Assembly: GCA_028345965.1 (NCBI GenBank)
Contig: JAOMEP010000004.1
Location: forward strand, 1 to 64,000
DNA: 64,000 nucleotides
Direction of reading: 5' to 3'
Source: Candidatus Nitrosopelagicus sp.
Lineage (GTDB): Archaea > Thermoproteota > Nitrososphaeria > Nitrososphaerales > Nitrosopumilaceae
A program made the translations under genes and the position numbers. The notes beneath the pieces were generated by a model. The model worked only from the letters and a program-made list of their open reading frames with translations. It was not told where the DNA came from and did not search any database. How positions within the stretch are numbered: the first letter of the stretch is position 1; each line of letters starts with the position of its first letter. Below, piece after piece: positions 46,659 to 48,948 of the stretch.

Positions 46659-48302
46659 TTGCCTGTTGTTGAATTAAACATAAATCGAATTAGAAAATTA
46701 GTTTCTGGAAATGTTACGCGTAAACAAATTCTTGATGTGTTACCATTTCTTGGTTTAGATATTGAATCTGAAGAAGGAGATGAAATTAGAATCGAATATA
46801 GCCCAAATAGACCTGATTACTCTACAGATTATGGAATTGCGACTGGTTTACAAGGTCTATTAGGAATAAAAAAAGGAATTCAAAAAACTCCCATCAAGAA
46901 AAAAGGAAATTATTCAATTAAGGTTGATTCAACTGTAACAAAAATTCGACCATATGTAACCGGAATTATCGCAAGTAATGGAAAATTAGATGACGTTGCA
47001 ATCAAACAATTGATGAACATGCAAGAAGATCTGCATGATGGAATAGGAAGGAAAAGAAAAAAATCATCTATTGGATTACATGATGCTGATAAGATCTCTT
47101 TTCCTCTAACATACACAACCGTCTCACGAGATCATAAATTCATTCCATTAAACGGTAGTACTGAACAAACAATTGATGAAATTTTAGCCAATACTGAGGT
47201 AGGACAAAATTATGGTTCAGTAATTGAAAATGCCAAAAATGTACCTATAATTTTTGATTCAGACCAAAACACCATCTCTTTTCCTCCGATAATTAATTCT
47301 GGATTAACAACTGTCACATCAAACACCAAAAATATTCTAATTGAAGTAACCGGAATTGATAAGGAGGCAGCCGAAGACATGCTTTCTGTAGTGATATCAA
47401 TTTTACAAACTGCTGGATTTGAATTTAATGAATTAAAAATAACTGGAAACAAAAATTCTACTCCTCAACTAAAGGAGAAAACCATGATCTATGACCCAAA
47501 ATTCACTTCTGAAATAATTGGAATAGAAATGAGCCCATCAAATATGGTGACATGTCTAAAAAAATGTAGATTAGATGCTTCAGTAAAAGGTAAAAAAATT
47601 ACTTGCATTATTCCTAGATACAGATTTGATATATTCAGTCCCATGGATTTGACAGAAGAAATTGCACTTGGATATGGAATTGCAAACATTGAACCAAAAT
47701 TATCGCCATCTACAACAATTGGTCAAAAAAATGATGTAACAATTAAAACAAAATTAATTAGTCAAACTGCGGTTGGTCTTGGATTCCTTGAAGCAATGAA
47801 CTCTAGTCTTACAAGTAAAAAAGTTCTATACGAAATGACAAAAAGAGATTCATCTCAAATTATTTCTGTACTAGATTCAAAAAGTCAAGAGCACACAATT
47901 CTTCGTGATTCGCTCTTACCTAGCTTGTTAGACAATCTTTCAAAAAATATCCATGAGTCATATCCTCAAAAATTATTTGAAACTGGTGTAGTATTTTCTA
48001 AAGGAAAACCTATTGACGAATCAATCAATTTAGCAGTAATAATTGCATACAAGGATACAAGTTATTCTGAAATTAAAGCAATAATGCAGTCTCTTCTTAG
48101 AACTAATTTTAAAATCAATTCAGAAACAAAAACTTCCAAAAATAACGAATTATTTTCAAAAGGTAGACATGCTGATATTTTTGTAAATGAGAGGAAAGTT
48201 GGAGAGATTGGAGAAATTGATTCTAACATATTGGAAAATTTCAGAATCAGAACTTCTGTAGTAGGTTTTGAGATAAAATTATCTGGATTAATATTTGACT
48301 AG
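46659..48302 (+). CDS. pheT: phenylalanyl-tRNA synthetase beta subunit
   Basis: FLGLDIESEEGDEIRIEYSPNRPDYSTDYGIATGLQGLLG; follows pheS directly. Confidence 0.95.
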   Translation: MPVVELNINRIRKLVSGNVTRKQILDVLPFLGLDIESEEGDEIRIEYSPNRPDYSTDYGIATGLQGLLGIKKGIQKTPIKKKGNYSIKVDSTVTKIRPYVTGIIASNGKLDDVAIKQLMNMQEDLHDGIGRKRKKSSIGLHDADKISFPLTYTTVSRDHKFIPLNGSTEQTIDEILANTEVGQNYGSVIENAKNVPIIFDSDQNTISFPPIINSGLTTVTSNTKNILIEVTGIDKEAAEDMLSVVISILQTAGFEFNELKITGNKNSTPQLKEKTMIYDPKFTSEIIGIEMSPSNMVTCLKKCRLDASVKGKKITCIIPRYRFDIFSPMDLTEEIALGYGIANIEPKLSPSTTIGQKNDVTIKTKLISQTAVGLGFLEAMNSSLTSKKVLYEMTKRDSSQIISVLDSKSQEHTILRDSLLPSLLDNLSKNIHESYPQKLFETGVVFSKGKPIDESINLAVIIAYKDTSYSEIKAIMQSLLRTNFKINSETKTSKNNELFSKGRHADIFVNERKVGEIGEIDSNILENFRIRTSVVGFEIKLSGLIFD

Positions 48303-48328
48303 CTGAAATTAGTAATGCCCAAAGAGCA

Positions 48329-48487
48329 CGCATTCAGACGGATTAGGATGACGAGATCGTAATGATTGCAATGATTTCTAATTCACCCAGGTTTGCGACA
48401 TATCGGGCAACCCCGGTTTCAGATCTGAAATGAGGATTTGGCTAAAACCAATGATTTTTTGCGAGTCAGGACCGGGGAACATTTTTT
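48329..48487 (+). ncRNA. candidate two-hairpin H/ACA-like guide sRNA
   Basis: Hairpin 1: upper stem GGATTAG(48340-48346)/CTAATTC(48378-48384), ACA at 48398-48400 13 nt downstream. Hairpin 2: 9-bp basal stem CCCCGGTTT(48411-48419)/GGACCGGGG(48469-48477), then A-ACA (48479-48481) and T6; apical K-turn-like GA-T-TTGG/CCAA-T-GA. Confidence 0.55.
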
Positions 48488-48519: not shown

Positions 48520-48948
48520 TTGATTGAAATGGTAAATTATTGGCTTGCAAAACAAGAACCAAGTGGACCTAGAGGTTATCACATTCTTGATCTAAAAAAA
48601 GACAAAACAACTGTTTGGGATGGCATCCATAACAATCAAGCACTAAAGTTTATGCGTGATGCAAAAAAAGGTGACGAAATTATCTATTATCATACGGGTG
48701 TCGAAAGACAGGCAGTTGGAATAATGACAATTACTTCTGATCCATATCCTAACCCAAAAGAGGATAACAAACGATTTATTGTTGTAGATGTAAAATTTAA
48801 AAAATTATTCAAAACTCCTATCACACTTGACGAAATGAAACTTCAAAAAAGTTTCAAAAACTGGGAACTATTACGAATAATGAGATTATCTTTTATGCCT
48901 GTTCCTCCAAATATCTGGAAAACTATTTTAAAATTATCTGATAAATAA
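48520..48948 (+). CDS. EVE domain-containing protein
   Basis: NYWLAKQEPSGPRGYHILDLKKDKTTVWDGIHNNQALKFMRDAKKGDEIIYYHTG. Confidence 0.9.
   Translation: MIEMVNYWLAKQEPSGPRGYHILDLKKDKTTVWDGIHNNQALKFMRDAKKGDEIIYYHTGVERQAVGIMTITSDPYPNPKEDNKRFIVVDVKFKKLFKTPITLDEMKLQKSFKNWELLRIMRLSFMPVPPNIWKTILKLSDK

Follow-up and report, generated by a model that had tools for sequence, protein, structure and literature searches.

A predicted two-hairpin box H/ACA guide RNA conserved behind pheT in Nitrosopumilaceae, with candidate targets in 23S rRNA

The pheT–EVE gap and its sequence setting

The window, the whole stretch of 64,000 nucleotides from Candidatus Nitrosopelagicus sp. that was analysed, carries on its + strand a gap between pheT, which ends at 48302, and a gene for an EVE-domain protein. 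Reading of the window sequence placed the stretch described in the initial annotation (48329–48487) in this gap, with the RNA locus downstream of pheT and followed by the EVE gene. The block is richer in GC than its surroundings, as had been claimed, the RNA locus having a G+C content of 0.38–0.44 against ~0.29 in the flanks. The EVE-domain gene occupies 48532–48948 and is an inconstant neighbour of the guide RNA; the earlier framing of the locus by both genes stood as to position, but pheT proved to be the constant neighbour. The guide RNA is unannotated, strongly conserved and non-coding. A covariance model matched the window at 48311–48484 (E 3e-48), and the length of the T run that follows the second ACA box differs among relatives.

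48317–48482, + strand: predicted complete two-hairpin H/ACA guide RNA (core), from the conserved block and the covariance model
48482–48487, + strand: T run following the second ACA, perhaps a terminator, from sequence only

Folding energy and covariation

The fold-energy z-scores against shuffled sequence were −0.76 for the whole RNA and −0.2 and −1.5 for the two units. As the fold energy was no better than that of shuffled sequence, a structure drawn by eye could be due to chance and a comparison was needed; 39 relatives were aligned for covariation. The conserved blocks of the alignment are the pockets, the ACA boxes and the K-turn bases, and most stems vary with compensation. Compensatory changes in relatives, which the initial annotation had proposed as a check, were present: 20 of the 35 pairs tested were changed on both sides, 88% of cells were paired and 81 cells were doubly changed, compared with a mean of 30.6 in shuffled controls and 11–40 in slid versions. 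The observed values for pairing and covariation were reached by none of 500 shuffles, and the covariation score was 0.232 against 0.151.

Phylum-wide, unit 1 gave 156 doubly changed cells (shuffled 52.9, slid 15–41) in an alignment that was fitted to the model and is therefore biased toward it. A separate reading of the unit 1 basal stem, with small shifts allowed, found 5 or 6 of 6 positions paired in 45 of 46 matches, and variants in relatives included GCATAC/GTATGC, ACACAT/ATGTGT, ACGCAC/GTGCGT and GCGTGC/GCACGC. For unit 2 the covariation evidence resides in the GA stem and the K-turn bases, the basal stem being uninformative because it is mostly invariant.

Structure of unit 1 and the outer stem

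The features of unit 1 and of the stem that surrounds it are as follows.

48317–48320, + strand: outer stem, 5' strand GCCC, surrounding unit 1; compensatory changes
48330–48335, + strand: 5' strand GCATTC of the unit 1 basal stem, with covariation at 5 of its 6 pairs
48336–48341, + strand: predicted unit 1 5' guide AGACGG, core GACGG; complementary to 23S CCGUC 2590–2594
48342–48351, + strand: unit 1 GA stem, 5' strand with U-GA (ATTAGGA-U-GA, 10 layers); covaries
48373–48382, + strand: unit 1 GA stem, 3' strand with GA-U (GA-U-TTCTAAT); covaries
48383–48390, + strand: predicted unit 1 3' guide TC-ACCCAG, core ACCCAG; complementary to 23S CUGGGU 2579–2584
48391–48396, + strand: unit 1 basal stem, 3' strand GTTTGC; pairs with 48330–48335, with the same covariation
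48398–48400, + strand: unit 1 ACA box, 15 nt from the GA-stem closing pair
48405–48408, + strand: outer stem, 3' strand GGGC; pairs with 48317–48320

The outer GCCC/GGGC stem, which was absent from the initial annotation, encloses unit 1 together with its ACA box, and is compensated as ACCTC/GAGGT in one relative (L040) and as GCCTC/GAGGC in another (L048). The basal stem of unit 1 comprises 6–7 pairs (7–9 bp in the class) and carries, in the lineage of the window, two U-U mismatches; 94% of its cells are paired phylum-wide. The CGCA/TGCG helix that had been suggested as the basal stem forms part of it, with the ACA next. This first box is ACA in 38 of 39 relatives and ATA in one, and is separated from the basal stem by a single G.

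The 5' strand of the GA stem is free of gaps in 36 of 39 relatives. The 7-bp stem GGATTAG/CTAATTC with an ACA 13 nt further on can be read exactly as claimed, the two pocket G's being able to pair (G-C and G-U) to give this stem and spacing; when the two G's are opened, the stem has 10 layers and the spacing is 15 nt, which are the figures given for productive guides of archaea (PMC4652768). A K-turn or K-loop, UGA...UGAU, with 7 pairs, a U-U and two G-A, was also identified that the initial annotation lacked. The pockets themselves were present, although the extent first given for them was not retained, and that of unit 1 was corrected to AGACGG / TCACCCAG. The GACGG core is invariant in alignment A1 and near-invariant out to Bathyarchaeota and Njordarchaeum; the ACCCAG core is likewise near-invariant.

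Six loci (L041–L045 and L047) lack both the long apical loop of unit 1 and a conserved AGAGC that otherwise precedes this unit, hinting at a contact between the two.

Structure of unit 2

Unit 2 lies directly downstream and is composed of the following elements.

48411–48418, + strand: unit 2 basal stem, 5' strand CCCCGGTT; a ninth T at 48419 can pair G-U
48420–48423, + strand: predicted unit 2 5' guide CAGA, conserved AGA; complementary to 23S U1923–U1925
48424–48433, + strand: unit 2 GA stem, 5' strand including the K-turn GA (TCTGAAAT-GA); double changes in 5 of 8 pairs
48434–48435, + strand: unit 2 K-turn C-stem, 5' strand GG; GAGG in 39 of 39
48448–48454, + strand: unit 2 K-turn, C-stem CC, bulge AAU and GA; NNUGA in 39 of 39, CC in 38 of 39
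48455–48462, + strand: unit 2 GA stem, 3' strand TTTTTTGC; 8 nt in 39 of 39
48463–48469, + strand: predicted unit 2 3' guide GA-GTCAG, core GTCAG; complementary to helix 69 C1916–C1920 of 23S
48470–48477, + strand: unit 2 basal stem, 3' strand GACCGGGG; pairs with 48411–48418
48479–48481, + strand: unit 2 ACA box, 16 nt from the GA-stem closing position

The basal stem CCCCGGTTT/GGACCGGGG, followed by A-ACA and the T run, was found as it had been described. It has 8–9 pairs (7–9 bp in the class), of which the first six are invariant and the next two change on both sides in single sequences. The second box is ACA in all 39 relatives and stands one nucleotide (A) behind the stem. The K-turn first proposed for this unit, GA-U-UUGG...CCAA-U-GA, is readable in the window but is not conserved in relatives, and the conserved K-turn is GA-GG...CC-NNU-GA. 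The GA stem was recounted from fixed anchors because MAFFT misaligned it; its distance to the ACA is 16 nt in the window and 14–15 in several other families. The 3' guide core GTCAG is near-invariant across the order and the 5' guide is kept as (A)AGA in most relatives.

Assignment to the box H/ACA class

Both units are hairpins in which an internal-loop pocket separates two stems, with covariation that is strongest in unit 1 and lies mainly in the upper stem of unit 2. Each has the ANA box, usually ACA, that directly follows the basal stem in this class, and the distance from GA stem to ACA, 14–16 nt in the class, is 15 nt in unit 1 (13 if the G pairs are kept) and 16 nt in unit 2. A K-turn or K-loop with a GA stem of ~10 layers is found in both; the layer count and the ACA spacing agree with archaeal H/ACA guides, and the K-turn criterion is from the same source (PMC4652768). 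Genes for Nop10 and Cbf5 occur in the genome of the window and in three relatives. The earlier H/ACA-like, two-hairpin reading was upheld by covariation, near-invariant ACA boxes, K-turns placed as far out as in known archaeal H/ACA RNAs, order-wide conservation and the Cbf5 and Nop10 genes, and the locus almost certainly encodes, as judged from its sequence, a two-hairpin archaeal box H/ACA guide RNA. In a search with Rfam only four tRNAs passed in the window and nothing relevant appeared at the locus even at E 10, so the better match to another known RNA family, which the initial annotation had named as a refutation, was not found there.

Predicted targets in 23S rRNA

The rRNA operons of six relatives were used for the target scans because no 23S gene was found in the draft assembly that contains the window, and the E. 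coli numbering was read off by eye, using the sequences of helix 69 and the peptidyl-transferase region. Matching of the pockets to rRNA, also proposed initially, gave a divided outcome. With the guides of the window alone and canonical 2–3 nt spacing, none of the sites in the rRNA operon of a relative scored above shuffled rRNA, but in scans averaged over divergent orthologs U1921 was the top site for unit 2 (24.1; next 18.6; maximum of 12 shuffles 21.9) and U2585/U2586 for unit 1 (27.9/26.6; shuffled maximum 23.8), the latter requiring a spacer of up to 5 nt. No target with canonical spacing was above chance for unit 1.

In the predicted pairing of unit 2, GUCAG lies on C1916–C1920 and AGA on U1923–U1925, leaving U1921–C1922 unpaired as a 2-nt spacer; the 5' guide of the window lineage matches little beyond AGA. 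For unit 1, ACCCAG lies on CUGGGU 2579–2584 and GACGG on CCGUC 2590–2594 with UUAGA between them, and this target loop of five nucleotides is unusual, the usual spacer between paired target segments being 2–3 nt (PMC4652768). Each of the six operons contains the two bipartite sites once, that of unit 1 at 2579–2594 and that of unit 2 in helix 69; among shuffled sequences the unit 1 site turned up in 0.6% and the unit 2 site in 1.1%, both figures being post hoc. The motifs were picked after the conserved pockets had been seen, the guide boundaries in the ortholog scan were drawn manually, and the guides, being related by descent, are not independent; these statistics are accordingly regarded as support and not as proof. 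Both predicted regions bear pseudouridines in other archaea, guided there by the Pf7, Pab40 and Haloferax HP1–HP2 RNAs (PMC2584109).

These data suggest that unit 2 probably modifies U1921 in helix 69, and a target of unit 1 in the 2579–2594 region, at U2585/U2586, appears similarly likely, with U2586 preferred over U2585 solely by analogy. In the proposed mechanism each hairpin consists of a basal stem, a pocket, a GA stem of ~10 layers with a K-turn or K-loop, and an ACA at 15–16 nt. L7Ae would bind the K-turns, and Cbf5, Nop10 and Gar1 would assemble on each hairpin. The pockets would pair with 23S rRNA and Cbf5 would isomerise the unpaired uridine to pseudouridine, such that GUCAG and AGA of unit 2 would direct modification of U1921 in helix 69, and ACCCAG and GACGG of unit 1, paired within 2579–2594, that of U2586 or U2585.

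Distribution and synteny

At the DNA level, conservation of the gap extends to 48 of 101 relatives, spread over 17 genera of the window's family, with identity falling to ~70%. The covariance model matched 236 of 300 genomes and 53 of the 64 genera of the order, at E values from 1e-50 to ~0.03, nearly always with one copy per genome. The weakest of these matches are mostly in family f8, often with unit 2 only, and some may be due to chance. At four f8 loci (L117, L119, L122 and L135) unit 2 alone was recognised behind pheT. The unit 1 model gave no match in six listed f8 genomes, and the peptidyl-transferase hairpin therefore seems to be lost, moved or strongly diverged there.

At nearly all loci of Nitrosopumilaceae the gene immediately upstream, in the same orientation, is pheT, and it likewise precedes the RNA at the examined loci of families f2, f3, f7, f8 and f14. 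No pheT was found next to L111, L116, L118, L121 and L126, or next to four checked loci outside the order. EVE was not found at several loci that carry the RNA (for example L023, L028, L041, L109 and L112). In the Nitrosocaldus-like family f2 (L112, L123) ~100 bases lie between the two units.

Unit 1 is distributed more widely. Its model matched 117 of 398 phylum genomes, some from families that do not belong to the order, and an exact pattern scan recovered the same unit 1 guides, with paired basal stems, in Bathyarchaeota, Nitrosocaldus and one Njordarchaeum (Asgard) record. One phylum match (L131) was dropped, being weak and having neither unit 1 nor the second ACA box in place. Bacterial matches in the pattern scan look like chance; in five that were inspected, 3–5 of the 6 basal positions paired and a second unit was missing.

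The same unit 1 guides are accompanied by a different second hairpin in one genome of the phylum (L133) and at L142, L158, L175, L184, L197, L203 and L213, which are loci of Bathyarchaeota and Njordarchaeum. In most of these the second hairpin reads GTCAGAGAG...GTTAGTTAC...ACA, and the Bathyarchaeota guides GTCA and GTTAC would fit U1915 of helix 69.

Discussion

A two-unit H/ACA guide acting with Cbf5 on both predicted 23S sites is, on the sequence evidence, a highly probable explanation of the locus as a whole. It is possible, though rather doubtful, that the RNA is of the H/ACA class and that unit 1 modifies another RNA or chaperones the 2579–2594 strand in ribosome assembly. The five-nucleotide spacer, outside the usual 2–3 nt (PMC4652768), and the missing canonical target above chance speak for such a role, but the limits of conservation of GACGG and ACCCAG match the stretches complementary to 2590–2594 and 2579–2584, a known archaeal pseudouridine region. 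It might also be entertained, tentatively, that unit 1 is a non-canonical H/ACA guide presenting a five-nucleotide rRNA loop, U2585–A2589, at the peptidyl-transferase centre; if true, this would be a pairing geometry or a chaperone role unlike that of the guides so far described.

An element acting in cis in the pheT or EVE transcript, such as a leader, an attenuator or a 3'-UTR stability element, would agree with the position of the RNA, which immediately follows pheT, in the same orientation, in the majority of the order's genomes. Such an element is very improbable, however, since EVE was not found at several loci that retain the RNA, the four checked loci outside the order have no pheT beside them, and the conserved part consists of pocket bases accompanied by ACA boxes and K-turns, the hallmarks of H/ACA RNAs. 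Nothing weighty argues for another known family (C/D guide, RNase P RNA, SRP RNA or a tRNA-like molecule), two sub-threshold C/D matches being at chance level; no Rfam gathering score was reached, structure and spacing are those of H/ACA, and this reading is scarcely credible. Chance hairpins in a GC-rich gap, which fold z-scores from near zero to −1.5 would allow, are contradicted by conservation and covariation over the order and the phylum and have a negligible probability.

Returning to the two-unit guide, the nearest parallels are archaeal. In Haloferax volcanii HP1 has been proposed for Ψ2621 (U2586) and HP2 for Ψ1956/1958 (U1915/U1917), the haloarchaeal hairpins are homologous to stems II and III of Pf7, and Pab40 makes Ψ2016, the equivalent of 1915, in helix 69, with an alternative fold proposed for the 2586 site (PMC2584109). 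As in the window RNA, HP1–HP2 are two H/ACA hairpins, the peptidyl-transferase one followed by the helix-69 one, although a long spacer separates them and the hairpins of the window RNA are adjacent. HP2 is assigned to 1915/1917 whereas unit 2 is predicted for U1921, and unit 1, unlike HP1, needs a 5-nt spacer; the likeness of the window RNA to HP1–HP2 is one of layout and target region. Adjacent hairpins are shared with Pf7, Pab40 and Afu-4 (Thermococcales and Archaeoglobus), although Pf7 has three hairpins and the window RNA two. The shared layout with Pf7/Pab40/HP1–HP2 and the Bathyarchaeota hairpin that would fit U1915 suggest that the window RNA works like that group; it may be the counterpart of these guides, compared by layout and target region, with orthology to Pf7/Pab40/Afu-4 unproven because no Rfam family reaches threshold on the window RNA. 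A further guide system that was compared has a GA stem of ~10 layers, a K-turn and an ANA box in common with the window RNA, but most of its members have no basal stem, whereas both window units have one. Among eukaryotes, yeast snR3 is the guide of 25S Ψ2264. U1921 corresponds to 2264 by position (1915 = 2258 and 1917 = 2260; PMC2584109), a correspondence of position only, with no sequence homology claimed.

The RNA described here is a new RNA of the established H/ACA class without an Rfam match, nearly order-wide in distribution, with unit 1 extending well beyond the order. In the literature searched, which covers a minority of subscription papers, no H/ACA guide or small-RNA data were reported for Thaumarchaeota or Nitrosopumilaceae. 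The ammonia-oxidising Nitrosopumilaceae are among the most abundant marine archaea, and here carry an RNA without an Rfam family. This RNA very probably would steer Cbf5 to two 23S uridines, one beside the peptidyl-transferase centre and one in helix 69, targets that were not named in the initial annotation and were suggested by the conserved pocket cores; pseudouridines are predicted at defined positions in two core regions of the large subunit. The presence of unit 1 as far out as Bathyarchaeota and one Asgard record points to an early origin of the peptidyl-transferase guide, whose helix-69 partner would have switched its target uridine from one lineage to another.
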